A stretch of 64,000 nt of DNA from Caloramator sp. E03 (lineage in GTDB: Bacteria > Bacillota > Clostridia > Clostridiales > Caloramatoraceae). Where the stretch lies: the NCBI RefSeq assembly GCF_006016075.1, contig NZ_CP040093.1:372001-436000 (forward strand), read 5' to 3'. Positions 30,321 through 56,191 of the stretch are shown here, piece by piece; within the stretch, counting starts at the first letter, position 1; every line of letters begins with the position of its first letter. A program made the translations under genes and the position numbers. The notes below the pieces were generated by a model. That model had not been told where the DNA came from. It worked only from the letters and a program-made list of their open reading frames with translations, and ran no database searches.

Positions 30321-30550
30321 CTAAGTATTATTCTATATAAAAGTTAAAATTCCTTCTTATTTAACAAAACTTAAAATTTAATTTATTTTATAATTTATAT
30401 AAATTTTTTATTATAATTAATATAAAAACCTATATATTGCTATATCCACCGCTTTAGTTTATAATTTATTTGATATTCATAAAAATTAACTCCATAATCT
30501 CTTGTATAACATTCTTGTTAAGATATAAAAGCAGAGAAAGGAAGATATAT

Positions 30551-31648: not shown

Positions 31649-31651
31649 CAT

Positions 31652-31690
31652 AAAAAGCCACTAAAAGCTCAAAGCTTTTAGTGGCTTTTT
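31652..31690. terminator. Bidirectional terminator, ychF / asnB
   Basis: A perfect 18-bp stem (31652-31669 with 31673-31690), three-base loop, A5/T5 ends. It lies between convergent genes. Confidence 0.95.
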
Positions 31691-31701
31691 ATTAACATCT
31701 T

Positions 31702-33540: not shown

Positions 33541-33637
33541 AGCTATACCTCCCTTAATTATTTCGAAGTATTTGTTAAAGAAAAATATTTTTACCAATAC
33601 TTTTTCCCCTGACTATTCTTCAATAAACTATAATATG

Positions 33638-33665
33638 AAGGGAGGCACCAATTAGCGCCTCCCTT
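33638..33665. terminator. Hairpin between YgjP-like gene and asnB
   Basis: AAGGGAGGC (33638-33646) pairs with GCCTCCCTT (33657-33665). It is GC-rich, but the T-run is poor on the minus strand, so it may be a partial terminator. Confidence 0.6.
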
Positions 33666-33684
33666 TACATAAATTTAAAATTTA

Positions 33685-34398: not shown

Positions 34399-34407
34399 AT
34401 AATCCCT

Positions 34408-37587: not shown

Positions 37588-37642
37588 TTAACCCCCTCCC
37601 AACAGAAATATATTTTATATATCCTTGAATACTATAAATACA

Positions 37643-37672
37643 GGACAGATATTCTAAAATAAATATCTGTCC
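37643..37672. repeat. Perfect inverted repeat between hsdR and Rpn gene
   Basis: GGACAGATATT (37643-37653) and AATATCTGTCC (37662-37672) form an 11-bp perfect hairpin with no T-run. ATACTAT occurs on both sides. It could be a terminator, an operator or an insertion footprint. Confidence 0.5.
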
Positions 37673-37687
37673 ATACTATTATAAAAT

Positions 37688-38704: not shown

Positions 38705-38795
38705 CTATTTCACCTACTAAACTTTTTCTTATTATTAATACTATTATGTTTTTTATATAATTTCAATTTTAAATTATATATGATATGGCTATCCT

Positions 38796-40025: not shown

Positions 40026-40039
40026 TAGTCTCACCTGCC

Positions 40040-41557
40040 TTATATTTCTTCAAATCCAAGTTCCTTTAAGTATTCGTTTAGTTTCTTTTCTGTTTCTGTC
40101 ATCTTTGTTTTTAACTCTTTTATTTCCTTTAATACATTATCTATATCTATTTCTTCCTCTTCTTCTGTTGTGTCTACATACCTGCTTATGTTTAGGTTAT
40201 AATCATTGTCTATTATACCCTGTTTTTCTACTACTGAAGAATATTTTTCAATGTCCTCAAATTTGTCAAAGGCTTCAACTATTCTTTGTATATCCTCATC
40301 CCTTAACTTATTTTTATTTCCATCCTTAACAAAGCCTTGGCTTGCATCTATAAATAAAACTTTATCTTTTCTTTTCTGTGATTTATTTTTGTTTATTACA
40401 AGTATGGCAGCAGGAATACCTGTTCCATAGAATATGTTTGAAGGTAGTCCAATTACTGCTTCAATTAAATCATCATCAACAAATCCCTGTCTTATCTTTT
40501 GTTCTGCACCACTTCTAAACAATACTCCATGTGGTACAACTGTTGCCATCATTCCCTTATCATTTAAACTTGCCACTATATGTGATACAAAGGCTAAATC
40601 TCCATAGGATTTTGGAGGTATGCCGTAATGAAATCTATCATATTTATCATTTTGTGCCTCTTCATATCCCCAGTTTTTTACGCTAAAGGGTGGGTTTGCA
40701 AGTATCTTATCAAATGTCTTTAAATGTCCTGCCTCTGTGTGCATTGGATTTCTTATTGTATCTCCCTTTTGTATGTCTGCTCCCTTTGCACCATGAAAAA
40801 GCATATTCATTTTACATATTGCCCAAGTTGATAGGTTTATCTCCTGCCCAAATAAAGAAACATTTTTAGGATTTCCTCCATGTTCCTTTATATATTGTAT
40901 AGATTGAATAAGCATACCTCCACTACCACAGGTAGGGTCATAAATTCTTTCTCCTTCCTTCGGCTTTACTATGTTTACCATAACCTTTACAACTTCAGCA
41001 GGTGTATAGAATTCTCCACCCTTTTTACCACTTTCATCTGCAAATTCCTTTATAAGATATTGATATGCATCTCCTAAAACATCCTCTGATTCAAGGTTTG
41101 AATTTGCAAGGTTAACACTATCAAATTTAAGTATTAGCTGTGAAAGCTTTTTATCTGGAACCCTTTCCTTATCGTTGTAGTTTGCTGTTGTAAGTACTCC
41201 AACAAGCTCTGAATTTTTAGGGCAGTCTTCAATTGCCTTAAATGCCTTATCAAGCTCTGGCCCTATATTTAAGTTTATGTCCCTTAGCTTTTCCCATCTT
41301 GCAGCCTCTGGAACAAAGAAGGATTCATAAAGGGTTGGGTCCTCTAATAAAACTTCTATTTCCTCATCAGGTATTCCCTGCTCTTTAAATTCATTTTTTA
41401 ATTTTTCTCTTTCCTCATTAAATTCGTCATTTATACGCTTTAAAAAAAGCATACCAAATATGTAATCTTTATATTCAGGAGCAGAAAGCTCTCCCCTTAA
41501 TATATCTGCACACTGCCATAGTATTGATTCAAGGTCCTGTAGTGTAAGTTTTGCCAT
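40040..41557 (-). CDS. hsdM: Type I restriction enzyme, M (methyltransferase) subunit
   Basis: HsdM methylates adenine (N6) in the sequence chosen by HsdS, protecting self DNA. The 505-aa protein has an N-terminal helical domain (LTLQDLESILWQCADILRG). SAM motif I is YDPTCGSGGML, and the catalytic NPPF (ANPPFSVKNWG) is present. A C-terminal coiled coil interacts with HsdS. The start at ATG 41557 is eight bases after GGAGG; a longer frame starts inside that site. It is the first gene of the restriction operon, and a terminator separates it from the Lon-like gene upstream. Confidence 0.96.
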   Translation of the reverse strand: MAKLTLQDLESILWQCADILRGELSAPEYKDYIFGMLFLKRINDEFNEEREKLKNEFKEQGIPDEEIEVLLEDPTLYESFFVPEAARWEKLRDINLNIGPELDKAFKAIEDCPKNSELVGVLTTANYNDKERVPDKKLSQLILKFDSVNLANSNLESEDVLGDAYQYLIKEFADESGKKGGEFYTPAEVVKVMVNIVKPKEGERIYDPTCGSGGMLIQSIQYIKEHGGNPKNVSLFGQEINLSTWAICKMNMLFHGAKGADIQKGDTIRNPMHTEAGHLKTFDKILANPPFSVKNWGYEEAQNDKYDRFHYGIPPKSYGDLAFVSHIVASLNDKGMMATVVPHGVLFRSGAEQKIRQGFVDDDLIEAVIGLPSNIFYGTGIPAAILVINKNKSQKRKDKVLFIDASQGFVKDGNKNKLRDEDIQRIVEAFDKFEDIEKYSSVVEKQGIIDNDYNLNISRYVDTTEEEEEIDIDNVLKEIKELKTKMTETEKKLNEYLKELGFEEI

Positions 41558-41654
41558 CTCTTTAACCTCCATATATTATAAATTTCAAAAGATATTGACA
41601 TCATAAATAATATTTTAACATATTGTAATAAAAAGCTTAATATTTTTAATGTGT

Positions 41655-41683
41655 AAAAAAGAGGCAGCAATGTGCCCCTTTTT
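41655..41683. terminator. Bidirectional terminator between Lon-like gene and hsdM
   Basis: AAAAAAGAGGCA pairs with TGCCCCTTTTT (one mismatch) over a six-base loop. It ends the Lon-like gene on the minus strand. Confidence 0.75.
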
Positions 41684-41746
41684 AAATATTTTAAAACTTC
41701 TTAAATGCATCTACATTTTTTACCATAACTGATAAAATTGAAACTA

Positions 41747-44113
41747 TCAGTTCCCTTTCTTTTTTGGCTTTTCATCTAAAAATATATCCTTATATTTTTT
41801 CATCTTGTCATTTATCCTATCCTTTAATAAATCTAAAACCCTTTCATTTTTCCTTAACTTTTCATCTATCATTATTTCCATACATTGTTCTATATTGCTA
41901 ACAGCATAAATACTAAAAGTATTATTCCCTACAGCATCAATAACTTCATCCTTTAAAATAAGTTGATCTAAATTTGAATGAGGTATTATAACTCCACAGT
42001 CATTAACATTTAGAGCTTTGCATATATAATAAAAACCTTCTATTTTCTCATTTATCCCTCCAACTGGCTGTATTTCTCCCCTTTGATTTATTGAACCTGT
42101 TACAGCAATATTCTGTTTTATTGGAATATCAGAAAGGCTTGAAAGAAGTGCTATTAGCTCTGCAGCAGAGGCACTGTCTCCATTTATTTCCCCATACATC
42201 TGTTCAAAGCATATATTAGCATTGAAGGACATGTAATTATTTTGGCCAAAGGTTTCTCCTAAATACCCTGTTAAAATCAATACTCCTTTACTGTGAATAC
42301 TGCCGCTCATTTGTATCTCTCTTTCAATGTTTATAACTCCGTTTTTCCCCGGGTAAGTAGTAACAGTTACTCGGTTTTGTTTTCCAAAGGCAAAATCCCC
42401 ATAATCAATAACTGCAAGTGCATTTATTTCTCCTATCCTATAGCCTTCAAGATTTATTATATATTTACCTTCCCTATACATATCCAAAAGTTTATCCCTT
42501 ATAATTCCATGCCTTTTTTCAAGGGAATAAATAGCATCTTTTACATCTTCCTTAGATATTTTAGTATTAGATTTTAGTTTTGCATTTGTGTTAGAAAGAT
42601 CGATTATGTCCACTATCTTATCAAAGGAGGCAGTAAAATAGTTTCTGCTCTCTGCAATTCTTGAAGAATACTTCATTATTTCAATTATTCCTTCTCTTGT
42701 TATAGGAAGTATATTATTTTCTTCGCAATAGTTGCTTATAAATCCAAGAAATTTTAAAATTTCACCATTGTTATTTTTTATATCCTCTTCAAAATCAGCC
42801 TTTATTTTAAAAAGCTCTTTAAAATCATTATCATAATTAAAAAGCAGATAATATATATATGGACTTCCAAGTAAAATAACCTTAATATCAAGAGGTATGC
42901 TCTCTGGCTCTAAAGTTGCAATAGGAATTATATCAAACTGGTTTTTTAAGTTTTCAATGAAAATATTATTTGAAATGAGGCTGTTTTTTAAAGCATTCCA
43001 ACCCTTATAGCTTAGTAAAAGCTGTAAGGCATCTATTATTATAAACCCACCGTTGGCTTTATGAAGGCTTCCTGCTTTTATCATAGTAAAGTCTGTAACA
43101 AGAATACCCTGTTTATTTTCATACTCTATAATTCCTATCAGATTATGAAATTCTGGTTTATCTTCAAATATTACCGGTGCTCCTTCACCTTCATTATTTG
43201 ATACGATAATATTTACACAGTATTTTTTAAAAAATTCATCGTCATACTTTTCTGCTATATCTTCACTATCCATAAATGCATCTATGTTTTCAATTATATC
43301 CCTTTCCATATCCCTTAAATATTCAATTACCTTTGGATTATATCCATATTTCTCTTCAAGAGTTTTTATCTTCTCTCCTATTATCTCTATTGATACATAA
43401 TCATCTAATTTTTTAAGCCTATCCTTCATCTCTTTTTTTAGCTGTTTAGTTTTTCTTATAGCTTCAAGAGCAATCATTTTAAGTTCACTAACGTCCTCAT
43501 TTATTTTATCCTTTGCCTCTTGGGAAAGCTCATTATACTGCCTTTCTGTCATCTCCTCATTATCATTAATAAGAGGAATAAAAGCAAAACCTTCTCCTGT
43601 ACTTTTAACATTAAATCCTCTAAACTTAGCTTCATCATACAATTTATCAACATATTTCAGCATTTCCTTTTGATAGGCATCCATAATCTCATTTCTTTTC
43701 TTTTCATATTCTTCACTTGAAAAAAAATCTGGAACTTCGTTAAATAAACTATCTATAAATTTTTCTATATCTTCTTTAAATTCCTTTGAAGTACCCGGAT
43801 TTAACCATATTGCTATAGGTATGTTCTTATCCTTAAAATTATATACATAACACCAATCCTTTGGAGTAGGCATTTTTTTAGCATATTCCTTAATCCTTTT
43901 TATAACATAACTTCTTTTCCCACAGCCATTGTTCCCTGATACATATATGTTATATCCTTTTTTATTCATCAATAATCCCAATTCAATTGCATCTACTGCC
44001 CTTTGTTGTCCAATTATTTCTTTAAATGGAGTTATCTCTTTGCTGTTATCAAAATTTGGAAGTGAACTATAGTCTATCTTAATGTCATCTACAGTTAGTT
44101 TTTTATACTCCAT
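41747..44113 (-). CDS. Lon-family ATP-dependent protease (LonB-like, AAA_32)
   Basis: The 788-aa protein has a split AAA+ domain with P-loop GNNGCGKRSYV (about 60) and a long helical insert. A C-terminal Lon (S16) protease domain follows: nucleophile Ser in GDSASAAELIALLSSLSDIP and the partner Lys in GGINEKIEGFYYIC. It has no N-terminal LAN domain, unlike LonA. Related proteins in Firmicutes are annotated only as Lon-like AAA proteases. The substrate is unknown. It is a single gene with its own terminator and ribosome site GGGGGG. Confidence 0.9.
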   Translation of the reverse strand: MEYKKLTVDDIKIDYSSLPNFDNSKEITPFKEIIGQQRAVDAIELGLLMNKKGYNIYVSGNNGCGKRSYVIKRIKEYAKKMPTPKDWCYVYNFKDKNIPIAIWLNPGTSKEFKEDIEKFIDSLFNEVPDFFSSEEYEKKRNEIMDAYQKEMLKYVDKLYDEAKFRGFNVKSTGEGFAFIPLINDNEEMTERQYNELSQEAKDKINEDVSELKMIALEAIRKTKQLKKEMKDRLKKLDDYVSIEIIGEKIKTLEEKYGYNPKVIEYLRDMERDIIENIDAFMDSEDIAEKYDDEFFKKYCVNIIVSNNEGEGAPVIFEDKPEFHNLIGIIEYENKQGILVTDFTMIKAGSLHKANGGFIIIDALQLLLSYKGWNALKNSLISNNIFIENLKNQFDIIPIATLEPESIPLDIKVILLGSPYIYYLLFNYDNDFKELFKIKADFEEDIKNNNGEILKFLGFISNYCEENNILPITREGIIEIMKYSSRIAESRNYFTASFDKIVDIIDLSNTNAKLKSNTKISKEDVKDAIYSLEKRHGIIRDKLLDMYREGKYIINLEGYRIGEINALAVIDYGDFAFGKQNRVTVTTYPGKNGVINIEREIQMSGSIHSKGVLILTGYLGETFGQNNYMSFNANICFEQMYGEINGDSASAAELIALLSSLSDIPIKQNIAVTGSINQRGEIQPVGGINEKIEGFYYICKALNVNDCGVIIPHSNLDQLILKDEVIDAVGNNTFSIYAVSNIEQCMEIMIDEKLRKNERVLDLLKDRINDKMKKYKDIFLDEKPKKKGN

Positions 44114-45017: not shown

Positions 45018-45143
45018 ATGGAAAAAGACAAAAGCAAAAATATAATTGAAAATAATAAGGACAACCAAAATCAAAATATTGAAAACAAATCATCATCAGA
45101 TAAAGAAATGGAAAATTCTGAATATATATTCTGGGTTAATTAA
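45018..45143 (+). CDS. Small hydrophilic protein, 41 aa, probable sporulation gene
   Basis: The ATG is seven bases after GGAGG. The 41-aa product is very rich in Asn, Lys, Glu and Ser and ends in the aromatic tail SEYIFWVN. It has no signal peptide or membrane segment. A complete transcription unit is visible: a mother-cell-type promoter before it and a strong terminator directly after its stop. That makes it a credible gene even though it is short. It lies on the plus strand between two minus-strand units. I do not recognise the family. Confidence 0.65.
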   Translation: MEKDKSKNIIENNKDNQNQNIENKSSSDKEMENSEYIFWVN

Positions 45144-45175
45144 AAGGGATTAAACAAAATTAATCCCTTTTTATT
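45142..45175 (+). terminator. Terminator after small ORF
   Basis: AAAAGGGATTAA pairs with TTAATCCCTTTT (45142-45171) and is followed by TTATTT. Confidence 0.85.
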
Positions 45176-45235
45176 TGATTTATTATCTATTCCATCAAGT
45201 AAAAACCCTGCAGAAAACAGAGCAAAAGCCTGAAA

Positions 45236-45266
45236 ATACTAAAATATAGAACAAATATTTTAGTAT
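45236..45266 (-). terminator. Hairpin downstream of the mrpD-like gene
   Basis: ATACTAAAATAT (45236-45247) pairs with ATATTTTAGTAT (45255-45266). It is AT-only, with a weak T-run, and marks the probable end of the hyp-antiporter operon. Confidence 0.55.
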
Positions 45267-45284
45267 CTGGCAGTTCATCCTTCC

Positions 45285-47177
45285 TTATGGCACAAGTAAA
45301 AATACATAGACTATAACTACTGCTGCTGTTGAAACAACCCAAAGGGCATAATCATTTACAGTTCCACTGTTAATTGAATTTATAAAATCAAAATACTTTC
45401 TAAAATTATATTTAATCCCCAAGAAAAGTCCATTTTCTCTGACCTGAGAACATTTACTTTTCACAGCGATATAAAATGTATAATAATTATAATCTTTATC
45501 TTTTTCTATATTACCTACTTTGATTTTTAATCCCCATGTTAGTGCCACTAATGTAAAAGAAGCTAAAAGTATTATAAATATGATTAGCCAATATTCTGGT
45601 CTACAGTATCCTGCAAGCTTATAATCAATATCTGGAACTGTTATAACTTCATTAAAATATTTTTGTGAATACCCTTTTCCATATATTACATCTATATACT
45701 TTCCAATGTTTAATGTTGCTGATACTGCCGGAGTTATTATGTACCTTGAAACATACCTTGGAAGTATTCCTGTTAGAAAGCAAAGTATTGCCATAATCCA
45801 CATAGGAATTCTCATAGTAAGAGGAACTTCCTTTGCATCTTCACATTCCTTTGGAAGCTGACCAAAAAATACTGACTGGATTATATTTATAAATGACGCT
45901 AAAGTTAAAACGCTAACTAAAAGTGCAACTATTGTAACAGGAATAAATCCTTCTTTATAACTTGCCTGATATATTAGCCCTTTTGATACAAACCCGTTAA
46001 ATGGAGGAAGCCCACTTATTGAAAAAGCTCCAATTAAAAAAATTAAAGCAGTTTGAGGCATCTTTTTAGCAAGACCTCCAAGTTTATTAATATCCGTAGT
46101 ACCAACAGAATAGAAAACTGCATCTGCACAAAGAAATAAAAGTCCGTTAAACAACGTGTAATTTAGTACATGATATAGACCTCCACTAATTCCAATGGCA
46201 GTTGAAAGTCCAATACCTGTTATAATATATCCTATCTGTGATATGCTCTGAAAAGCAAGAAACCTTTTAAAATCAGTTTGTATAAGTGTCATAGTAACTC
46301 CTATAAACATAGTAATAGTTCCTAATACAACAACCAAAATATGAATTGGTGGCAAATTCATACTTTGAAAAAGAACATATAAAAGCCTTATTATACCATA
46401 CACCCCGGCTTTGTTTACCATTGAGGAAAAGAACATAAAAACAGCTGCCGGAGCTGTCGTGTATACATCGGCTGCTATAGAATGCCATGGAACAATAAAG
46501 GCCTTAACTGCATATCCAACAAATATTATTCCAAAAGCAAACAAAGTTATTGGAGTGTAGTTTTTATGCATTAAGACTGCAATCTGTGCCATATTAAGTG
46601 TATGGAGCTGTGCATATAATAGAATTGTCCCTATAAGTATAAAGGATGAGCCTATTGAGCCCACAACTATATATTTAAATGCAGCTTCAATAGCCCCTTC
46701 AATATGACTTCTAAAGGCTGTTAATGTTACTGCCGAAAAGGTTGATATTTCAATCATAACAAACATATTAAATATATCTCCAGAGAATATAAATCCTATT
46801 ATACTTCCCGAAAGCATTAGATATAGTACATAGTATTTATCAATAATATCATCTTTTTCCATATACTTAAAGGAATATAAGCCAGATAAGAATATCGTAA
46901 AGGATGCTAATACTGCAAAAAATAGACTAAGCTGATCGACTACAAGACATATACCTACTACACTATCTGGTACAGGTATCCAGTTGCCCATCCAGTAGGA
47001 AATAATCTGTCCATCAATAATAACAGGCTTAATTAGAAGTAAAATAAGTATAAAAGATATTCCTGTTGAAACTGTTGTTATTATCTTTCTTACTAAGGCT
47101 TTCCCCCTAAATAAAGCATTTAAAAAAGCACCAAAAAACAAAATTATAATTGACAGTACCGGATAGTGCTGCATCAC
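45285..47177 (-). CDS. mrpD: Mrp/Mbh-type antiporter subunit D (MrpD/MbhH-like)
   Basis: This is a polytopic ion-translocating subunit homologous to complex I NuoL/M/N. The 630-aa protein has about 14 transmembrane helices plus extra C-terminal helices. The conserved Glu (FVMIEISTFSAV) and Lys (AVKAFIVPWHSIAADVYTTAP) of the proton channel are present. It is the last gene of the eight-gene antiporter module. The start GTG 47177 overlaps the mrpC-like stop (GTGATG); ATG 47174 is possible. Confidence 0.9.
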   Translation of the reverse strand: MMQHYPVLSIIILFFGAFLNALFRGKALVRKIITTVSTGISFILILLLIKPVIIDGQIISYWMGNWIPVPDSVVGICLVVDQLSLFFAVLASFTIFLSGLYSFKYMEKDDIIDKYYVLYLMLSGSIIGFIFSGDIFNMFVMIEISTFSAVTLTAFRSHIEGAIEAAFKYIVVGSIGSSFILIGTILLYAQLHTLNMAQIAVLMHKNYTPITLFAFGIIFVGYAVKAFIVPWHSIAADVYTTAPAAVFMFFSSMVNKAGVYGIIRLLYVLFQSMNLPPIHILVVVLGTITMFIGVTMTLIQTDFKRFLAFQSISQIGYIITGIGLSTAIGISGGLYHVLNYTLFNGLLFLCADAVFYSVGTTDINKLGGLAKKMPQTALIFLIGAFSISGLPPFNGFVSKGLIYQASYKEGFIPVTIVALLVSVLTLASFINIIQSVFFGQLPKECEDAKEVPLTMRIPMWIMAILCFLTGILPRYVSRYIITPAVSATLNIGKYIDVIYGKGYSQKYFNEVITVPDIDYKLAGYCRPEYWLIIFIILLASFTLVALTWGLKIKVGNIEKDKDYNYYTFYIAVKSKCSQVRENGLFLGIKYNFRKYFDFINSINSGTVNDYALWVVSTAAVVIVYVFLLVP

Positions 47178-47524
47178 CCATTCAACCTCCTTATTTTATC
47201 AGCATCTATTGTCCCAAACTTTTCCTTAATTTTAATTACGAAAGATAAAGCCATTGCAGTAACACAAACACCTATTACTATGGAAGTTAAGGCTAAAGCC
47301 TGTGGAACAGGATCAACGAAAAATGTTTCAGGTTTAATCTCTCCTAATGTAAAAATAGATTCTGTTCCCCCTGCCTTAAAACCTACACTAACAAAAAGAA
47401 GGTTTATTCCATAATTTATAAGGCTTAATCCTATAACAATTTTAATAAGATTCTTTTTAACAAGAACTGTATATAATCCAAAAATTATAAGCAAAAATGA
47501 ACATATATAATTCTCGATTATCAA
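47174..47524 (-). CDS. mrpC: Mrp/Mbh-type antiporter subunit C (NuoK-like)
   Basis: The 116-aa protein has three transmembrane helices and the NuoK/MrpC pattern (IKIVIGLSLINYGINLLFV; DPVPQALALTSIVIGVCVTAMAL). DPxPQALxLTAIVI is highly typical of MrpC. TTG 47524 follows GAGGTG; the upstream GTG at 47533 lies inside that site. The reading frame ends in overlap with the mrpD-like start. Confidence 0.92.
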   Translation of the reverse strand: MIIENYICSFLLIIFGLYTVLVKKNLIKIVIGLSLINYGINLLFVSVGFKAGGTESIFTLGEIKPETFFVDPVPQALALTSIVIGVCVTAMALSFVIKIKEKFGTIDADKIRRLNG

Positions 47525-47539
47525 AAAAAACACCTCACT

Positions 47540-48001
47540 TTAGTAATTATTGCTATTACCATCTGATGGCAGCAATACAAGCATAAGAAGCATTAAAAAT
47601 CCAACTCCTGTTAAGACTTTATATATAACAGCGGAGCTTGTCCAAAATGTAGTTTCTAAATTATATAATTTTTGAATATTACCAATATTAAAAAACACAT
47701 TTTTACAAAAATTAGCTACACATATTATTCCAATAAGAGCAAAAAAGGAATACGCTATTACCTCAATTCCTTCATTTTTTCTAATTAACTCCATGTTGAA
47801 AGTTTTCTTTAAACCTTCACTCCCATATCCAAGATATATAAGCATTACAGAAAATGCTATCAAAACCCCTCCCTGAAATCCTCCTACTGGAGCTAAATTC
47901 CCATTTAGAATTATATAAAACCCAAGTACAAGGCCAATTGGAGCAAAAATATCAGCACCAATTTTTACTATTATGTTTTTAATTTTGATATCATTTTTCA
48001 T
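47540..48001 (-). CDS. mrpB: Mrp/Mbh-type antiporter subunit B (MnhB domain)
   Basis: The protein is about 153 aa, with four transmembrane helices and the MnhB signature (APIGLVLGFYIILNGNLAPVGGFQGGVLIAFSVMLIYLGYG). Of three in-phase starts, ATG 48001 has the best spacing from AAGGAAGAAGG. It overlaps the preceding gene. It corresponds to MbhF in archaeal membrane-bound hydrogenases. Confidence 0.88.
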   Translation of the reverse strand: MKNDIKIKNIIVKIGADIFAPIGLVLGFYIILNGNLAPVGGFQGGVLIAFSVMLIYLGYGSEGLKKTFNMELIRKNEGIEVIAYSFFALIGIICVANFCKNVFFNIGNIQKLYNLETTFWTSSAVIYKVLTGVGFLMLLMLVLLPSDGNSNNY

Positions 48002-48344
48002 TTTCATCATCCTTCTTCCTTCTACCGTTCTTTAAAATTACATATAAACCAGATACAGCAGTTAATAAAATAAATGATTCACTCAACCTATCATAACCTC
48101 TAAAATCAAAAAACACTGCAGCTACAGCATTTATCCCTTGAGTTTTGTCTAAATTTCCTTTAACTATTACATCCTCAAGGCCTTTTGCACCTTTAACATC
48201 GTATTTTGATGGATTAGATAATAGATCATATATCTTTGTACCACCTTCATTAATTGTTCGGGGCAGCTTTGCCGCATATATCATTCCAAACATGCCTAAT
48301 ACTGTAATAATAGACAGTGAAAAATATATAAAAAATCTTTTCAT
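47991..48344 (-). CDS. MbhE-like antiporter subunit
   Basis: The 117-aa protein has one N-terminal and one C-terminal transmembrane helix around a hydrophilic loop. The pattern TQGINAVAAVFFDFRGYDRLSESFILLTAVSGL is typical of the MrpA C-terminal/MrpB N-terminal segment, encoded as a separate small protein (MbhE) in Mbh-type modules. The ribosome site GGAGGGG is well spaced. It overlaps both neighbours slightly. Confidence 0.82.
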   Translation of the reverse strand: MKRFFIYFSLSIITVLGMFGMIYAAKLPRTINEGGTKIYDLLSNPSKYDVKGAKGLEDVIVKGNLDKTQGINAVAAVFFDFRGYDRLSESFILLTAVSGLYVILKNGRRKKDDENEK

Positions 48345-48595
48345 AACTTGTCCCCTCCTTTGACCTTCTTTAAAGCCACTAAAAATATAACAGGGGAAAG
48401 CAAAGCACCAATAACTGCCTCTGCAATTGCAATATCTGGTGCTTGAAGTATAATAAACTCTAATGCTACAAAGGTACCTAAACCACTTAAAGCTATAATA
48501 GACGATAATATATTCTCAAAGTATACAGAAAATACTGCAAAAATAAGAATACCAATTACAATAATAGTATTTAATAAAAGTACGCTATTTGTCAT
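48341..48595 (-). CDS. DUF4040 / MbhD-like antiporter subunit
   Basis: The 84-aa protein has three hydrophobic helices and the family pattern ALSGLGTFVALEFIILQAPDIAIAEAVIGALLSPVIF, which corresponds to a C-terminal piece of MrpA. ATG 48595 is nine bases after GGGAGGG; the longer frame has no site. No large MrpA subunit is present, so this and the next gene stand in for its C-terminal part, as in Mbh clusters. Confidence 0.86.
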   Translation of the reverse strand: MTNSVLLLNTIIVIGILIFAVFSVYFENILSSIIALSGLGTFVALEFIILQAPDIAIAEAVIGALLSPVIFLVALKKVKGGDKL

Positions 48596-48926
48596 TAAGA
48601 ATATCCCTCCCATATTCATCACAAACGAAGTTTTTACTGGGCCTTATTCCAAACCTGTAGGCAGCTTTACAAATAGAATGTGTTGCAATTGGATTAGTAA
48701 GAAGTATAAAAAAAACTATCAAAATAGCTCTTACTCCGATTGAAATACTTCCTCTATAAAATGAATAGATTGCTCCTCCTATTACTGTACCTAAAGTTCC
48801 AAGTGTTGCTATGTTTGTACTTGACTGCATCCTACAGAAAGTATCTGGCATTCTTATCATTCCAACAGTTCCAGCAAAGGCAAAAAAACTTCCTAAAATT
48901 AAAAATATATCGACAATTATTCTCAT
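48585..48926 (-). CDS. mrpG: Mrp/Mbh-type antiporter subunit G
   Basis: The 113-aa protein has three transmembrane helices with the MnhG signature (GTVGMIRMPDTFCRMQSSTNIATLGTLG; LTNPIATHSICKAAYRFGI). It overlaps the mrpF-like gene by four bases and the DUF4040 gene by eleven, so it is translationally coupled. Confidence 0.92.
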   Translation of the reverse strand: MRIIVDIFLILGSFFAFAGTVGMIRMPDTFCRMQSSTNIATLGTLGTVIGGAIYSFYRGSISIGVRAILIVFFILLTNPIATHSICKAAYRFGIRPSKNFVCDEYGRDILNDK

Positions 48927-49177
48927 AGTTTTCCCTCCAAATACCTTGATATTAACACCGTTTTTATAAAGCCAATCACTGTAATTATAAGGGCTATATC
49001 AAGATAAATTCCTCGTCCACTATATAATGAAAAAAGAATTAAAGCAACTGATGTCATAATTTCAATTGAATTTACTGCAATTACCCTATCAACCACATTA
49101 GGGCCCTTTGCTACTCTATATAAAAGCAAAAAACTAAGAAATATGTATAATATGCCAATTATAATTAATTCTATCAC
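48923..49177 (-). CDS. mrpF: Mrp/Mbh-type antiporter subunit F
   Basis: The 84-aa protein has three transmembrane helices and the MnhF motif YRVAKGPNVVDRVIAVNSIEI. The start is GTG 49177, eight bases from GGGAGG and overlapping the mrpE-like stop as GTGA. ATG 49183 is possible but only two bases from the ribosome site. Confidence 0.9.
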   Translation of the reverse strand: MIELIIIGILYIFLSFLLLYRVAKGPNVVDRVIAVNSIEIMTSVALILFSLYSGRGIYLDIALIITVIGFIKTVLISRYLEGKL

Positions 49178-49695
49178 TTCCATATCCTCCCAATACAATT
49201 TTCAAGAGTACCTTTAATAATCTCCCCATCTTTAACATTATTAGTAGTTGCAACATCAATGCAGTGAATATAGTAGTAATTCTTTCCTCTATCCTCAGCA
49301 ACGTCCATAGTAATAGTTCCAGGAGTCAGAGTTATAGAATTTGCAAGCATAGATAGGGCATATTCTGATTTTAGGTTAGATGGAATCTTTACTATGCCAG
49401 GATTTACTGGTAGAGAAGGACTAAGAGCACATTTTGCTACATCAACATTAGCTTTCCAAAGCTCCTTTGGGAAAATCACAAACACATACTTAATTAAAGC
49501 AACAAATTTTGAAGGATTAAATAAATAAAAGGGGGTATCGTGTATAAAAAAACTCGCTGTAAATAATGCTACAATATAACTTACTATAGCTCCTATAAGG
49601 AGCTCTTCAAAAGAAAATGCAAAGGTAAACAGTATCAATATTATATAACATAAAATGAATGTGGATATAACAGCTAAAAAATGATTTTTTTTCAA
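49174..49695 (-). CDS. mrpE: Mrp/Mbh-type antiporter subunit E
   Basis: The 173-aa protein has N-terminal transmembrane helices (about 8-60) and a soluble C-terminal domain (VKIPSNLKSEYALSMLANSITLTPGT, CIDV) of MrpE type. The start is TTG after GGAGGG. It is the first antiporter gene and follows hypB by only ten bases, which makes the hyp genes and the antiporter one operon. Confidence 0.92.
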   Translation of the reverse strand: MKKNHFLAVISTFILCYIILILFTFAFSFEELLIGAIVSYIVALFTASFFIHDTPFYLFNPSKFVALIKYVFVIFPKELWKANVDVAKCALSPSLPVNPGIVKIPSNLKSEYALSMLANSITLTPGTITMDVAEDRGKNYYYIHCIDVATTNNVKDGEIIKGTLENCIGRIWK

Positions 49696-49705
49696 AATAT
49701 CCCTC

Positions 49706-50365
49706 CTATCTTTCTATTTTTTCAAAGATTTTATCTTTAATAAAGTCTGTAAGTTTTTCAATCCCTTCACCGCTTTTTGATGAAATTCTAAAAATAGCTA
49801 TATTGTGATTTAAATCCATTGCCATATTCTCAACCTTTACATCATCAAAATCAAAGAATTCTTTCATATCATACTTATTTATAGCAAGTATATCAGTTGT
49901 CGAAAACATAAGAGGATATTTTTCAACCTTATCATCACCTTCAGGTACACTAAGTATTGCTATCCTTATATCTTCACCTATATTGAACTCAGCAGGGCAA
50001 ACAAGGTTGCCGATATTTTCCACAAAAACAACGTCTGTATTTTCCAGGTCAAAATACGGCAAAACATGTTTTATTGACATCGCCTCAATATGACAAGCTC
50101 CATCAGTGTTAAGCTGAACAACTGGTATTCCTAAAGCATCAATCTTTTTTGCATCTACCTGCCCAGCAATATCTCCTTCAATAACAGCTATTTTATATGT
50201 TCTTGATAACCTTTTTATAAGTTCAACTATAAGACTTGTTTTTCCAGTTCCTGGTGATCCCATAACGTTTATCATAAAAACCTTCTTCTCCTTAAGTTCC
50301 TTTTTTATTTCATTGCTACAATCCTCATTCCATTCAAATATTTGCCTAACAACCTTTATTTCCAT
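49706..50365 (-). CDS. hypB: Hydrogenase nickel incorporation protein HypB
   Basis: HypB is a GTPase that, with HypA, delivers nickel to NiFe-hydrogenase. The protein is about 219 aa, with P-loop GSPGTGKTSL and the metal-binding GACHIEA region. The NKYD-type guanine motif is present. The N-terminal CxxCGC nickel site and the His-rich stretch found in some HypB are absent, so nickel handling may depend on HypA. ATG 50365 has slightly better spacing than ATG 50368. It overlaps the hypA stop. Confidence 0.95.
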   Translation of the reverse strand: MEIKVVRQIFEWNEDCSNEIKKELKEKKVFMINVMGSPGTGKTSLIVELIKRLSRTYKIAVIEGDIAGQVDAKKIDALGIPVVQLNTDGACHIEAMSIKHVLPYFDLENTDVVFVENIGNLVCPAEFNIGEDIRIAILSVPEGDDKVEKYPLMFSTTDILAINKYDMKEFFDFDDVKVENMAMDLNHNIAIFRISSKSGEGIEKLTDFIKDKIFEKIER

Positions 50366-50706
50366 CATTCCACCTCCAAGCTATCAATATAAAATTCTCT
50401 CCCAGATATTATTTTTATATCATAGCTCCCGCAAAGGGGGCATTTTACCTTATTACGTTTAATTATGCTTTCTTTACAACAATTTTGGCACTTTATCTTA
50501 ATTGGTACTTTTTTTATTTTAAGTAATGCACCTTCAGCTAGTGTACCTTTTGATGCGATATTGAAATATTCTTGCATTATATCTGGTATTACCCCAGACA
50601 TTTCTCCTACCATAAGCCTTATTTCAAGTATTCTTTTTGCATTGTGCTTTCTTGCCTCATTCTGCGTTATCTTAAGTATTTCTTCAATTATAGAAAGTTC
50701 ATGCAT
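50365..50706 (-). CDS. hypA: Hydrogenase nickel incorporation protein HypA
   Basis: HypA is a nickel- and zinc-binding chaperone. The 113-aa protein begins MHELSI, whose His2 binds nickel, and has two zinc CxxC pairs (CQNC, CPLC). Its ATG overlaps the end of a 42-aa ORF by eight bases and lacks a good ribosome site of its own. Translation is therefore probably coupled to that small ORF. hypB follows directly. Confidence 0.95.
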   Translation of the reverse strand: MHELSIIEEILKITQNEARKHNAKRILEIRLMVGEMSGVIPDIMQEYFNIASKGTLAEGALLKIKKVPIKIKCQNCCKESIIKRNKVKCPLCGSYDIKIISGREFYIDSLEVE

Positions 50707-50827
50707 AATACCATCTATCCAAACATAAAAAACATGAGGAACTACTTGTAATTATAAGGCACAAATCTGCAACTGCCTTGTCTTTAAACATATAAGTAAA
50801 AACAGGTATTTTTCTATATTCCTGCAT
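50699..50827 (-). CDS. Small ORF between hypE and hypA, 42 aa
   Basis: The ATG is preceded by a near-perfect Shine-Dalgarno AGGAGGTGA. The 42-residue product starts MQEYRKIPVFTYMFKDK and ends with a Ser/Cys-rich, hydrophobic tail including CFLC and WYYA. The stop overlaps the hypA start, so it could be a translational-coupling leader, a tiny hyp accessory protein, or the relic of a larger gene. I do not recognise it. Confidence 0.55.
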   Translation of the reverse strand: MQEYRKIPVFTYMFKDKAVADLCLIITSSSSCFLCLDRWYYA

Positions 50828-50859
50828 CAACTCACCTCCTAAGTTTTTAACAAAAATAA

Positions 50860-51861
50860 CTAACATATCCTTGGAAGCTGAGAACCTGATAATTTTGTCA
50901 ATATTCTTGTCCCACCTATTGATGTTTTAAGTACTACTCTTTGCTTAACCTTTGATGTTACTTTCCCTATAATTGCAGCCTTCTCTCCACCCTTTATTTT
51001 TTTTAAAGTATTTACTACTTTATTTGCAACATTTTTAGAAACAACAGCAACTATTTTGCCTTCATTTGCTGAATATAAAGGATCAATTCCAAGTATCTCA
51101 CATGCTTTATTAACTTCTTCAGAAATAGGAATACTTTCCTCAAAAAGCTCAATACCAATCTCTGTTCCTTCTATAAACTCATTTAAAGTTGTTGCAATTC
51201 CTCCTCTTGTGGGATCTCTTAAAATCTTTATATTATTTCCATATTCAAGTATTACTTTAGATAATTCATGAAGAGGCATACAATCAGATACTAAATTCAT
51301 ACTTTCAAAAACCTCTTCCCTTGCTGCCATTACAGCAACACCGTGGTCTCCAACATTCCCTGATACAATTACCATATCCCCATCTTCAATTCTATTTTTA
51401 TCTAAAAAATCATATTTTAAATAACCAATACCTGTGGTATTGATATATATCCCATCTCCTTTTCCTCTTTCAACTACTTTTGTATCACCTGTAACTATCT
51501 TAACGTTACATTCATCAGCAGTTTTGCTTATAGACTCTATTATTCTTTTTAAATTCTCTGTTTTAAATCCTTCTTCAATTATCAAACTAATACTTAAATA
51601 TTTAGGTTCACCTCCACACATACATATATCATTTACAGTACCACAAACTGAAAGCTTTCCAATATCTCCTCCAGGAAAAAAGAATGGTCTTACTACAAAG
51701 CTATCGGTTGAAAATACTATTTTATCAAATCCATTTAATATTGCTCCGTCATTTAACTTGGAAAGCTCTTCATTATCAAAATATGGCAAAAACATCTCCT
51801 CTATAAGTTGTGATGTTTTTTTTCCCCCACTTCCATGGGCAAGGGTTATAATATCATCCAT
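50860..51861 (-). CDS. hypE: Hydrogenase maturation factor HypE
   Basis: HypE dehydrates a carbamoyl group, donated by HypF, on its C-terminal cysteine to form the cyanide ligands of the NiFe site. The 333-aa PurM-like ATPase has AHGSGGKKTSQLI at the N-terminus and ends in LPRIC, so the essential C-terminal Cys is present. It lies five bases downstream of hypD. Confidence 0.97.
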   Translation of the reverse strand: MDDIITLAHGSGGKKTSQLIEEMFLPYFDNEELSKLNDGAILNGFDKIVFSTDSFVVRPFFFPGGDIGKLSVCGTVNDICMCGGEPKYLSISLIIEEGFKTENLKRIIESISKTADECNVKIVTGDTKVVERGKGDGIYINTTGIGYLKYDFLDKNRIEDGDMVIVSGNVGDHGVAVMAAREEVFESMNLVSDCMPLHELSKVILEYGNNIKILRDPTRGGIATTLNEFIEGTEIGIELFEESIPISEEVNKACEILGIDPLYSANEGKIVAVVSKNVANKVVNTLKKIKGGEKAAIIGKVTSKVKQRVVLKTSIGGTRILTKLSGSQLPRIC

Positions 51862-51865
51862 TATC

Positions 51866-52954
51866 TCACCTCATACGGGAATACTTATATTCAGAAGCAC
51901 AAGCTCCCTCACTTGAAACCATGCAAGGTCCCAATGGATTCTCCGGAGTACATATCCTCGAAAAGAATTCACATTCAAAAGGCTCTATCTTACCTTTTAT
52001 AACATCCCCACATCTACAAAGCCCTGTATAATCGCAGGTTTTCAATTCTATCGAAAACTTTTTTGTTGCATCAAAATCACTATATTCATTTTTTAATTTG
52101 TATCCACTGTTTTTAATAAACCCAATGCCTCTCCATAAATCATCACAAAACTCAAAGTAGTTATCTATTGCTGCTTTAGCCTTTTCATTTCCTTTTTTCT
52201 TTACAGCTCTTATATATTCGTTTTCAAGAAAAGGAGTATTATTTTTTATCATCTCCGATAACCTGTATATTGAATAAATTATGTCTCCTGCTTCAAATCC
52301 ACAAATAACTGAAGGTATTTTATATTCTTTTACTAAAAATTCAAATCCTTCTTCTCCAATTATAACCGCTACATTTCCAGGGCATAAAAATCCATTAACT
52401 TCAAAATTGTCCATATTTATAATATGTCTTAAAACTGGTTCAACCCTTTTATGAATACTAAAAAGGCTAAAATTTTTAATTTCCTCATTTATAGCAGTTT
52501 CAACTGCTACAGCAGAGTTTGGAGCTGTAGTTTCAAATCCTATTCCAATAAAGACAATTTCTTTGTCAGAATTTTTTTTAGCAATTTCTAAAGCATCCAT
52601 CGGAGAATAAACAACTCTTATATCGGCACCTTCTGCTTTCCTTCTTTCAAGACTTTCATCAGAATTGGATCCCGGAACCTTTATCATATCTCCATAGGTT
52701 GTAATTATAACATCTTTAATTTTTGAAAGTTTTATAATTTCATCTATTATTTCAACAGGAGTTACACATACAGGACAACCAGGTCCTGATATAAGCCTTA
52801 TGTTCTTTGGCAAAATGCTCTTAATTCCAAACTTTGCAATAGCCATAGTATGTGTTCCGCAAACTTCCATTATAGTTATTCTTTTTTTATATTCCTTTAA
52901 AATCCTTATAATATTTTCAACAGCATCAGATTTATTGAATTCTTCCCAAAGCAT
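51866..52954 (-). CDS. hypD: Hydrogenase maturation protein HypD
   Basis: HypD is the iron-sulfur scaffold on which Fe(CN)2CO is assembled with HypC. The 362-aa protein has MEVCGTHTMAIAKFGI, the thiol pair in GPGCPVCVTP, GFETTAP and a Cys-rich C-terminal 4Fe-4S region (CDYTGLCRCGD ... CEFFSRICTPENPLGPC). The ATG follows AAGGAGG and overlaps hypC by 23 bases. Confidence 0.97.
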   Translation of the reverse strand: MLWEEFNKSDAVENIIRILKEYKKRITIMEVCGTHTMAIAKFGIKSILPKNIRLISGPGCPVCVTPVEIIDEIIKLSKIKDVIITTYGDMIKVPGSNSDESLERRKAEGADIRVVYSPMDALEIAKKNSDKEIVFIGIGFETTAPNSAVAVETAINEEIKNFSLFSIHKRVEPVLRHIINMDNFEVNGFLCPGNVAVIIGEEGFEFLVKEYKIPSVICGFEAGDIIYSIYRLSEMIKNNTPFLENEYIRAVKKKGNEKAKAAIDNYFEFCDDLWRGIGFIKNSGYKLKNEYSDFDATKKFSIELKTCDYTGLCRCGDVIKGKIEPFECEFFSRICTPENPLGPCMVSSEGACASEYKYSRMR

Positions 52955-53162
52955 CAGCTACCTCCTTAATCATTTTTAAATTTTCAAGTGCAACTTCTTC
53001 TTCTATTTTCTCTATTGCAAAACCAGCATGAACTATTACATAATCCCCTATTTTTACATCTTTAATAAAATCAATCCTGATGTTCTTCTTAAATCCATAA
53101 CTTTCTCCAATAGCATCCTTACCATTTATTTTAGTAATCTTCAATGGCACTGCTAAACACAT
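52932..53162 (-). CDS. hypC: Hydrogenase maturation chaperone HypC
   Basis: HypC carries the Fe(CN)2CO group from HypD to the hydrogenase large subunit. The start at ATG 53162 gives 76 aa and places the essential Cys at position 2 (MCLAVPLKI); GGAGGGG is upstream. The longer frame would add 11 residues before it. The conserved VIVHAGFAIEKI is present. It overlaps hypF by ten bases. Confidence 0.96.
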   Translation of the reverse strand: MCLAVPLKITKINGKDAIGESYGFKKNIRIDFIKDVKIGDYVIVHAGFAIEKIEEEVALENLKMIKEVADALGRIQ

Positions 53163-55414
53163 TTTACTTCCCCTCCATAATATGCAATTAAACACTGTCC
53201 TAAAGATATTCCCTCATCATTTGTTGATACTCTGTTGTGGCAGTAAACCTTAAAGCCTTTTTTTTCAATACATCCCTTAACCTTTGGTAAAAGATACATA
53301 TTTTGAAATACTCCTCCTGATAATACTACATCTTCAATCCCTGTTACACTTCCTATTTTTTCAACTATATCAGCACTAACCTTTGCAAGAGTATTCATAA
53401 ACTTAGAGCAAATTAGTCCTTTAGATATACTTTTTTTAATATCACTTACTATCTGATCAATTACTACTGTCCAATCAAATTGAAAAATTCCATTTATATT
53501 CTCTATCTTATATTCATAATATTCATTTGTTTTTTCAGCTAAGCTTTCAACTAAAACTGCTCCCTGCCCCTCATAAGATACAATCTGTTTTATATTAATT
53601 ATCGAAGCTACCGCATCGAAAAGTCTTCCAATGCTACTTGCAAGAGGAGCATTTATGCCCTTTTTGAGCATTTTCTCTATTATAAAAATATCTTCATTAA
53701 ACTTGAAATCTTCTGGTATTTTATTATAGGTTTCATATAATACTGAATAGCCAACCCTATAAATCTCTTTAATTGCCTTATCTCCTCCAACTATATGTAT
53801 AGGCTTTATAGTACCAAGCCTTTCAAAGCCTATATAGCTTCCTTTTAAAAATTCTCCTCCCCAAATCGTTCCATCAGTTCCATAGCCTGTCCCATCCCAA
53901 ATCACTCCTATAACCTCTTTATCTATATTGTTATCAGCAATGCACGATGCTAAATGAGCATGATGATGTTGTATAAAGCATAAAGGTATTTTATCCTCCT
54001 TTGCCCTGTTTAATGCATATTCAGTTGATATATAATCAGGATGAAGGTCACAGGCTATTTTTTCAGGTTTGATATTAAACAAATTTTCAAAATGCTTTAT
54101 CTGCTCCTGATAATATTGTAATATCTCCATATTCTTCATATCACCTATATGTTGGCTTAAAAATACATAATGTCCCCTTGATAAGGCAAAGGATGCCTTC
54201 TGTTCCGCTCCACAGGCTAAGACTTTTCCTACTTCTTTATTTAATTTTATTGGAAAAGGAACATATCCTCTCGACCTTCTTATAGGATATTCCTTACCTT
54301 CAAATTCCCTTATAACTGAATCATCACACCTTGTATATATATCTCTATCATTCATTAAAAATCCATCAACAATTGACGATAATTTCTCTATGGCTTCATC
54401 ATTTTTATATACTATTGGTAAATCCGATATGTTAGCACTTGTCATGACCAATGTATCAATATCCTCATTTAAAATAAGATAATGAACTGGAGTATAAGGA
54501 AGCATAACCCCAAGATAGTTATTATCTATAGAAACACTTTTAAATGATTCTTTAAACTTTTTTTTTAAAAGTACAATTGGTCTTCTAAAGGATTTTAACA
54601 TATTTTCTTCATACTCATTTACAAAGCACCATTTCCTTATAGTTTGAACATCTTTGCACATAAGAGCAAAAGGTTTTTCATCTCTATGCTTTTTATACCT
54701 TAATTTATTAACAATTTCATCGTTTAATGCATTACAAGCTAAGTGAAAACCTCCAATACCTTTAATTGCTATTATTTTACCTTCTTTTAAAAACTTAATA
54801 GATATTTCTATTGGATTTTCATAATATACTTTACCATTTTTATCTTTGAAAAAAAGTTTAGGTCCGCAATTAAAACAACAGTTCGGTTGTGCATGGTATC
54901 TCCTATCTTCTATATCTTTATATTCTCTATTGCAGATTTCACACATTGTAAAGTTTTTCATAGTAGTTTTTTCTCTATCGTAAGGAACATCTTTTATTAT
55001 TGTAAACCTTGGCCCACAATTAGTGCAGTTTATAAAAGGATATCTATAGCGCCTATTTTTATTATCAAAAAGCTCTTTTAAGCAATCTTCACAAATAGAA
55101 ACATCTGGGGACACCAATGTAAACTTCTCATCGTCATTTGTACTATTTATTATCTTAAAATCATTAAATATATTATTTTTTTTAATCCTCCTAATCGAAA
55201 CATTTTCAATAAGTGCAAGCTTAGGACTATTTTGCTTAATTTCCTGTATAAAATTTATCAAGCATTTATCTTCTCCTTGTATTTCCATTACAACTCCATT
55301 AGATGTATTTTTAATCCAACCTTTTATACCATAGTTTTTTACCAATTTATGTATAAACGGTCTAAACCCAACTCCTTGAACTATTCCATTAATTTTTAAT
55401 CTAATAGTATCCAT
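53153..55414 (-). CDS. hypF: Carbamoyltransferase HypF
   Basis: HypF makes carbamoyl-AMP from carbamoyl phosphate and passes it to HypE. The 753-aa protein has an acylphosphatase domain (GIVQGVGFRPFIHK), two zinc fingers (CEDC ... CTNCG; CEIC ... CFNCG) and a YrdC-like domain. A Kae1-like carbamoyltransferase domain (IQHHHAHLASC, VIWDGTGYG) closes the protein. ATG 55414 follows AAGGTGAT. It is the first gene of the hyp-antiporter operon. Confidence 0.97.
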   Translation of the reverse strand: MDTIRLKINGIVQGVGFRPFIHKLVKNYGIKGWIKNTSNGVVMEIQGEDKCLINFIQEIKQNSPKLALIENVSIRRIKKNNIFNDFKIINSTNDDEKFTLVSPDVSICEDCLKELFDNKNRRYRYPFINCTNCGPRFTIIKDVPYDREKTTMKNFTMCEICNREYKDIEDRRYHAQPNCCFNCGPKLFFKDKNGKVYYENPIEISIKFLKEGKIIAIKGIGGFHLACNALNDEIVNKLRYKKHRDEKPFALMCKDVQTIRKWCFVNEYEENMLKSFRRPIVLLKKKFKESFKSVSIDNNYLGVMLPYTPVHYLILNEDIDTLVMTSANISDLPIVYKNDEAIEKLSSIVDGFLMNDRDIYTRCDDSVIREFEGKEYPIRRSRGYVPFPIKLNKEVGKVLACGAEQKASFALSRGHYVFLSQHIGDMKNMEILQYYQEQIKHFENLFNIKPEKIACDLHPDYISTEYALNRAKEDKIPLCFIQHHHAHLASCIADNNIDKEVIGVIWDGTGYGTDGTIWGGEFLKGSYIGFERLGTIKPIHIVGGDKAIKEIYRVGYSVLYETYNKIPEDFKFNEDIFIIEKMLKKGINAPLASSIGRLFDAVASIINIKQIVSYEGQGAVLVESLAEKTNEYYEYKIENINGIFQFDWTVVIDQIVSDIKKSISKGLICSKFMNTLAKVSADIVEKIGSVTGIEDVVLSGGVFQNMYLLPKVKGCIEKKGFKVYCHNRVSTNDEGISLGQCLIAYYGGEVKCV

Positions 55415-55777
55415 ATAAATCACCTTAAAAAATATTATATAACAGCAGTAATAATTAAATAATAATTATACAATCTGTTTATTTTGTCTATAAAGTTTCG
55501 TATATAATAGCTAAAGCCCTGATTTATCAAATTTTGAAACTTCCATGGTATATTTTTCCTATTTATGTTATTATTATAATACATCCAAAATAAAATTAAA
55601 ATGACAATTATTATATAATTTTAATATTTATGTTATTTTACTATGCTATAAAATTTTATGATACAAATTAAAATAACTAATAAAAAAAGCCCCTTCGAGA
55701 AAACAATAAAATATGATATAATTTACATTATGATTTTGTAAAATATGATTTTTATAAATATAAAGTAAAGGGGATAG
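55415..55777. other. AT-rich intergenic region upstream of hypF and the gene at 55778
   Basis: No gene is seen. For hypF (minus strand) a weak promoter candidate is TTTATA (55489-55494), 18 bases, TATAAT (55465-55470). For the plus-strand gene there is TATAAT at 55717-55722 with TTCGAG 17 bases upstream; the latter is a poor -35. No riboswitch or repeat family is recognised. Confidence 0.4.
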
Positions 55778-56191
55778 ATGTATATGAGTTTTAAAGAAAC
55801 ACTTGCCAAAAAGTATGCTGAAGCATATCTTAAGAAATATGGTGACAGATTGACACAAGTTCAAGGTCACATTTTAAGCGTTAAAATATCAACCAAGGCT
55901 ATACTTGGAATATATCATATACTAAAGGTGGATATAATATTAAGACCTGAAAGAAGTAAGAATGTCCAACGATGTCAATATATAAGAAAACAATGGTTTA
56001 AAAAGCCTGAATTTATGCAGCTCTCTCAAGGAAACCTTGTAATAATTCAAGGAGTAAAAGGTAAGAAAGGAAAGGATAACAGCGAAATAATTCAAGTTCT
56101 TAATATAATGAACCTAACAACAAAGAAGGATTTAATTCCTATGGATCATAACAAAATAAAAAAGATACAACAAAAACAAATTATTAAATAA
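55778..56191 (+). CDS. Conserved-looking protein of unknown function, about 137 aa
   Basis: The protein is small, basic and soluble. The N-terminus is helical and Lys-rich (SFKETLAKKYAEAYLKKYGD). It is followed by several predicted beta strands (GHILSVKIS; ILKVDIILRPE; GNLVIIQGVKGKKG), which could form an OB-like barrel and suggests nucleic-acid binding. ATG 55778 and ATG 55784 (MSFKETL) are both possible given AAAGGGG. It is a single-gene unit with a strong terminator. I do not recognise the family. Confidence 0.8.
   Translation: MYMSFKETLAKKYAEAYLKKYGDRLTQVQGHILSVKISTKAILGIYHILKVDIILRPERSKNVQRCQYIRKQWFKKPEFMQLSQGNLVIIQGVKGKKGKDNSEIIQVLNIMNLTTKKDLIPMDHNKIKKIQQKQIIK

Follow-up and report, generated by a model that had tools for sequence, protein, structure and literature searches.

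Why should a bacterium keep a full set of [NiFe]-hydrogenase maturation (hyp) genes in one operon with the antiporter genes of a membrane-bound hydrogenase (Mbh), with no hydrogenase subunit among them? The locus in question lies in a 64,000-nucleotide stretch (the window; positions 372001 to 436000 of a single 2.98-Mb contig) from the genome of Caloramator sp. E03, a heat-loving Caloramator-type bacterium; the genome is 97.8% complete. An initial annotation had proposed that the antiporter module either serves an Ech/Mbh-like hydrogenase encoded elsewhere or acts alone, and only the latter proposal survives, as an antiporter cotranscribed with the maturation genes. The annotation had missed where the 14-gene locus comes from: it is what remains of an Mbh operon that was complete with 19 genes. 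In our assessment it is very probably a clostridial Mbh operon of this type that lost mbhK, mbhL, mbhM, mbhJ, and mbhN by two deletions and kept 14 genes, among them those of an MrpA-less exchanger under relaxed selection. Alignment to relatives shows that the locus originated by loss of the five-gene hydrogenase module; no partner is left, and the antiporter frames are intact though relaxed.

All 14 genes are in the places originally assigned to them, hypF-C-D-E-A-B running on the minus strand into mrpE-F-G, mbhD, mbhE, mnhB, mrpC, and mrpD (Table 1). HypF, HypC, HypD, HypE, HypA, and HypB score above the NCBIfam cutoffs, and the hypA-F set is complete and conserved. The antiporter names hold as well: MNHE, MrpF, PhaG/MnhG, MbhD, MnhB, Oxidored_q2, and Proton_antipo_M are above the Pfam cutoffs, while the MbhE-like call, weak in Pfam (E = 1.5e-4), is borne out by synteny and BLAST. 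The gene order is that of mbhA-H. Described as an eight-gene module, the antiporter does have eight genes but is nine-part, since the last ~130 residues of MrpD match MbhI: a profile of this C-terminal domain, built from nine homologues, finds chain I of 6cfw (E = 2e-10) and no other convincing match. The antiporter part of an Mbh, mbhA-H plus MbhI, is thus complete, with MbhI fused to MbhH. The tight spacing noted for the operon is true of most antiporter genes, which overlap, and of hypB and mrpE, 10 bp apart, but not of hypE and hypA, where a 153-bp gap marks the first deletion scar. Between hypB and mrpE there is no terminator, and matches resembling promoters are no more frequent than chance would give (78 versus 68.7 ± 8.2). 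The operon ends in a hairpin, as had been noted. None of the operon genes encodes a hydrogenase subunit. There is no large MrpA either, the whole contig having one Proton_antipo_M protein and one MNHE protein, and no canonical Mrp operon with mrpA was found elsewhere in it.

In relatives, the intact operon comprises 19 genes in the order hypF-C-D-E, mbhK, mbhL, hypA, hypB, mrpE-F-G, mbhD, mbhE, mnhB, mrpC, mrpD, mbhM, mbhJ, and mbhN, so that mbhK-mbhL stand between hypE and hypA and mbhM-mbhJ-mbhN after mrpD. It is flanked by a P-type ATPase and a 137-amino-acid gene on one side and by deoC and lonB on the other. We found it in C. quimbayensis, a member of the window's genus (genome G005, operon locus L025), and in C. 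fervidus, C. australicus, C. proteoclasticus, and Fervidicella metallireducens, and the same core order recurs in about 35 further loci from Lachnospiraceae, Oscillospiraceae, and other clostridia. In whole-genome searches of 17 family members, most proved to have a group-4 large subunit encoded between hypD and mrpE, and wherever the sequence of a locus with this type of operon reaches far enough, the hydrogenase genes are present. An earlier study described TCEL_00187-00205 of C. celer as a ferredoxin-dependent Mbh-like enzyme (PMC3986597); the tag range covers 19 loci, matching the gene number of the intact operon. In phylogenetic trees, the antiporter genes of the window and the mbh genes of its relative are sisters in every gene set.

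Some details of these operons deserve mention in their own right. The otherwise intact operon of C. quimbayensis has no hypB between hypA and mrpE (L025 7617-8566), and its hypA is fast evolving (branch length 0.43 versus 0.18 to 0.20 in the window). The 137-amino-acid protein (window 55778-56191, plus strand) has no Pfam match; its gene is a divergent neighbor of the operon in relatives and is kept even where the hyp genes are gone (in G010; see below).

Both missing blocks have left traces in the DNA. The hypE-hypA gap holds a chimeric frame, MQEYRKIPV followed by FTYMFKDKAVADLCLIITSSSSCFLCLDRWYYA and a stop codon, the start of which matches the start of mbhK (consensus MQEYKKIEI) and the end the MbhL C terminus (consensus TMLRGNSVADAGLIIASIDPCFSCLDR). 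On the 3′ side of mrpD, ~95 bp align to the start of the relative's mbhM with frame-breaking gaps and are followed by post-mbhN sequence including the hairpin. Both scars are readable against the relative's operon, and the alignments show two separate deletions, one taking out mbhK-mbhL and the other mbhM-mbhJ-mbhN. Of MbhL, the catalytic large subunit with its Ni-binding CxxC pairs, only the degenerate C-terminal 29 codons are left, and of MbhJ, MbhN, and the anchor MbhM, only a frameshifted mbhM stub is found at the locus. An assembly error was considered and rejected: the scars have diverged in sequence, the genome is one contig, and the deletion found in a third species of the genus (G006) is not the same one.

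In G006, hypE passes directly into the deoC leader, everything between being gone. HypF, HypD, and HypE of C. quimbayensis and G006 are 85 to 89% identical and each other's closest, versus 67 to 74% identity to the window; G006 and the window lineage therefore lost their genes independently. Three states thus coexist in one genus, with the operon intact, its catalytic half deleted, or everything between hypE and deoC deleted. A genome of another genus, G010, may represent a third loss: mrpE stands right after the P-type ATPase block with no hyp genes there, and no group-4 large subunit was found by genome search of this draft, which is 82% complete.

How has selection acted on the antiporter genes left behind? 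Rates in the window were compared with those in C. quimbayensis, using seven intact relatives as the root, and invariant positions were defined as those unchanged in up to 44 intact operons. Pairwise dN/dS (nonsynonymous over synonymous divergence) between the two was set aside, with dS at 1.05 to 1.45 and synonymous sites near saturation. The window/C. quimbayensis rate ratio was 1.0 for hypFCDE and 0.9 for flanking genes; it was 1.5 for mrpEFG, 2.8 to 2.9 for the mrpD core, and 3.8 to 4.3 for mbhDE-mnhB-mrpC. Of 329 invariant antiporter sites, 52 were changed in the window versus 7 in C. quimbayensis (P = 3e-10), while at invariant hyp sites the two were equal (6/335 each). The drop in constraint is thus confined to the antiporter, where constraint has fallen without vanishing. 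In the MbhI-like domain, 7 of 19 invariant residues were changed versus 19 of 146 in the MrpD core (P = 0.015), a loss to be expected because the partner is gone (archaeal MbhI has been grouped with the hydrogenase side of the MBH); the domain is still an open frame.

Such a pattern raises the question of passive decay, by which the antiporter would have become functionless after the loss of the hydrogenase and be kept by short time or by the upstream hyp genes protecting the operon. We regard this as unlikely, if the most serious of the rival explanations. It would account for the acceleration of the antiporter alone, for the loss of charged path residues, and for the deletion of the whole module in G006. 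Against it, the eight frames (about 1,500 codons) contain no stop and no frameshift and are all of normal length, whereas simulated neutral divergence of 0.2 per site introduces ~27 stops into them (8 at 0.05 per site), and the adjacent scars are ~20% diverged at conserved codon positions, the MbhL scar differing at 8 of 40 first and second positions. In the same scar, 9 of 20 invariant residues are changed (45%), more than in the antiporter (16%; P = 0.003). The core residues of MrpD are likewise kept: the glutamate of transmembrane helix (TMH) 5 and the lysines of TMH7, TMH8, and TMH12 (E144, K226, K257, and K400 in L025 numbering) are invariant, the window included.

Several observations nonetheless weigh against an exchanger that still works. 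The main weakness is that the neutral calibration rests on one 87-bp scar. In TMH11 of MrpD, His340 is replaced by Tyr and Lys344 by Asn (H340Y, K344N), corresponding to positions 333 and 337, which in Mrp connect the central with the distal lysines (PMC7419157, PMC9568556). MrpC has Asn for Asp40 (D40N), equivalent to MbhG D37, named as a Na+ ligand; MrpF has Asn for Asp43 (D43N), equivalent to D35; and there are further path losses (H310Q, E79V, and others). Beyond the MrpD core, then, the window has lost several of the charged residues that are otherwise conserved along the H+ and Na+ paths. The module is also wholly gone in the sister species G006 and hence dispensable in the genus, and judging from the residues lost, it may no longer transport in the window lineage either. 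The MrpF change is found in G010 too, and a D-to-N substitution at this position was mild in Bacillus subtilis (PMC7419157). Because secondary charges have been lost in both ion paths, exchanger activity is probably weaker or altered; that some transport function is retained seems to us rather likely. An AlphaFold model of MrpD (ten sequences) was not used, its mean pLDDT confidence score being 51.

A possible role for such an exchanger is suggested by the Rnf complex. A complete rnfCDGEAB operon is present in all three species of the genus (G000:C1:226001-241000, L113; L114; L115). Elsewhere in the family, RnfC-like matches of similar strength occur only in G009 and G016, both without Mbh, and among the family's other genera no Rnf was detected in genomes that carry Mbh. 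Mbh genes are found in 1 of 5 Rnf-positive versus 10 of 12 Rnf-negative genomes, a lead only, as kinship is uncorrected and several genomes are incomplete. The hydrogenase module (mbhK, L, M, J, N) was lost by two deletions, and the hyp genes have stayed fully constrained. The antiporter half (MrpEFG, MbhDE, MnhB, MrpC, and MrpD with MbhI) remains translatable, and we propose that its eight proteins still assemble in the membrane. Instead of evolving H2, they would most likely carry out a group-3-like, MrpA-less Na+/H+ exchange on existing gradients, e.g., those made by Rnf. With Rnf as a pump driven by ferredoxin, the cell could have come to do without the hydrogenase and still have had use for an exchanger, although the antiporter may be on its way out in the window lineage. 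There are precedents for parts of this scheme: the stand-alone MrpA-less Mrp of Pyrococcus furiosus exchanges Na+ for H+ (PMC8415708), and a metabolic model of Caldicellulosiruptor made the same substitution on paper, replacing MBH by Rnf together with Mrp (PMC8269263). In its strongest form, the proposal would be that a respiratory hydrogenase, having lost precisely its catalytic half, has become a functional Na+/H+ antiporter that stands alone again, the reverse of the Mrp-to-Mbh direction accepted for their evolution, and that it now converts the gradient of a newly relied-on Rnf; this we advance tentatively, with doubt outweighing confidence.

A new redox partner, such as Rnf or a group-1-type hydrogenase, with which the antiporter would form a new complex, is improbable. 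The distribution of Rnf (three species of the genus and two Mbh-less family genomes, undetected in Mbh-bearing other genera) and the open frame of the MbhI-like domain would both fit, but constraint on that domain has been lost, the antiporter genes are neither fused to nor clustered with those of another redox enzyme, and a hand-over by gradients requires no contact.

More improbable still is the first proposal of the initial annotation, that the module belongs to the membrane portion of an Ech/Mbh-like hydrogenase with its catalytic subunits encoded elsewhere, even though the gene content is that of mbhA-I and hyp genes are present. In the one-contig, 97.8% complete genome there is no match to PF00346, so no group-4 large subunit, and none to PF00146, so no NuoH/MbhM homologue; MbhJ and MbhN are absent from the locus, where they were checked, and a search of the plasmid collection gave no match. 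The scars show, moreover, that the subunits were once at the locus and were then deleted. The genome search that had been suggested for [NiFe] subunits did return one large subunit, the sole PF00374 protein, but of group-1 type. It belongs to the single [NiFe] hydrogenase of the genome, at 2.268 Mb, about 1.85 Mb from the operon. Its large subunit best matches NiFeSe/NiFe uptake enzymes, and the small subunit has a group-1 C-terminal domain; its neighborhood includes genes for a maturation protease and a cytochrome-b5-like protein, with no hyp genes. Since hypD is single copy in the genome, there is no other client, and this enzyme has no hyp genes beside it, it is most likely what the retained hyp genes mature. 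The equivalent hydrogenase of G007 and G010, from two other genera, has its own hyp set. [FeFe] hydrogenases remain for H2 production. The cytochrome-b5-like small protein (L005 11535-11933) is a possible unusual electron carrier, and the group-1-type enzyme looks cytosolic, its small subunit having no obvious twin-arginine translocation signal.

Least credible is a chance fusion, with an Mrp-type operon inserted beside an unrelated hyp operon, which has nothing beyond bare gene content in its favor and was rejected on the scars and on synteny, the hypA-hypB-mrpE and mrpD-terminator-deoC junctions being found in relatives' intact Mbh operons and the antiporter genes being sister to the relative's mbh genes throughout.

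Table 1. Genes, deletion scars, and terminator of the operon (window coordinates)
Feature	Position	Strand	Basis
hypF	53153..55423	-	TIGR00143, E 1e-250
hypC	52932..53195	-	TIGR00074
hypD	51866..52954	-	TIGR00075
hypE	50860..51861	-	TIGR02124
Scar 1: chimeric, degenerate 42-codon open reading frame, first ~9 mbhK codons + last 29 mbhL codons; stop codon read past	50699..50827	-	Alignment to relative's intact operon
hypA	50365..50706	-	TIGR00100, PF01155
hypB	49706..50368	-	TIGR00073
mrpE / mbhA	49174..49695	-	PF01899
mrpF / mbhB; conserved cation-path Asp is Asn (D43N)	48923..49198	-	PF04066
mrpG / mbhC	48585..48926	-	PF03334
mbhD	48341..48622	-	PF13244
mbhE	47991..48344	-	PF20501 weak, ortholog by synteny
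mnhB / mbhF	47540..48010	-	PF04039
mrpC / mbhG; D40N at MbhG D37 position	47174..47533	-	PF00420
mrpD / mbhH with fused C-terminal MbhI-like domain (about 45288-45680)	45285..47177	-	PF00361; 6cfw_H E 5e-78; 6cfw_I E 2e-10 for C-terminal family
Scar 2: frameshifted mbhM N-terminus remnant joined to sequence 3′ of relative's mbhN	45176..45270	-	Nucleotide alignment to L025
Terminator hairpin, operon end, common to relative's intact operon	45142..45171	.	Sequence, L025 alignment

Two further observations concern the surroundings. At 30470-41747, the window carries a lineage-specific type I restriction-modification insertion between lonB and ychF, which adjoin in relatives (L025, L029, L036); it comprises hsdM (40040-41572), an open reading frame in the place of hsdS (38796-40034), hsdR (34408-37587), a Transposase_31 gene, and asparagine synthase. 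Several Caloramator genomes encode a further complex that resembles Mbs/Mbx of Thermococcales: it has two MrpD-like subunits, and the C terminus of its large subunit is without the Ni-ligand CxxC (L030 4014-13398 in G003; similar loci in G001, G011, G012, G013, and G015).

Among known systems, the Mbh operons of C. celer, C. quimbayensis, C. fervidus, C. australicus, and Fervidicella have the same genes, order, and neighbors as the window, which differs in lacking the five hydrogenase-module genes, present only as scars. Compared with the MBH of P. furiosus (6CFW), MrpD, MrpC, MrpF, and the MbhI domain of the window match chains H, G, B, and I; the catalytic, small, MbhK, MbhM, and MbhN subunits are missing, MbhI is fused to MbhH, and several path residues are changed. 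The stand-alone group-3 Mrp of P. furiosus (mrpEFGBB′CD), which takes part in Na+/H+ exchange and pH response, has a single MrpD, no MrpA, and no energy-input module (PMC8415708), like the window, where MrpB-G are present and MrpA is absent. In the archaeal system, however, MbhD and MbhE are fused, whereas the window encodes them separately, retains MbhI, and shows in its DNA the descent from a complete Mbh operon. Canonical Mrp of groups 1 and 2 (Bacillus, Anoxybacillus, Dietzia) shares homologous MrpB-G subunits, but its MrpA N-terminal proton subunit is nowhere in the window's genome. Loci from other families of the order (L095-L107) also have split MbhD and MnhB and no group-4 large subunit or hydrogenase nearby, but with three MrpD-like proteins and only about 30% identity they form a separate lineage; only a single MrpD is present at L109 (and perhaps at L108, which is cut by the contig end).

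According to a published view, it is the joining of a hydrogenase to an antiporter that relates Mbh, Mrp, and complex I (PMC8415708). Here the reverse is caught in the DNA, with both scars readable and the whole enzyme in a relative of the same genus. The locus is thereby a natural test of whether an antiporter half works without redox input or MrpA, and of which residues then stop being needed. Stand-alone MrpA-less modules and the intact Mbh operon type are already known; new, as far as the searched literature shows, is an MrpA-less module derived from Mbh by catalytic loss, a case in which the scars are visible, a relative from the same genus is intact, and losses occurred independently.

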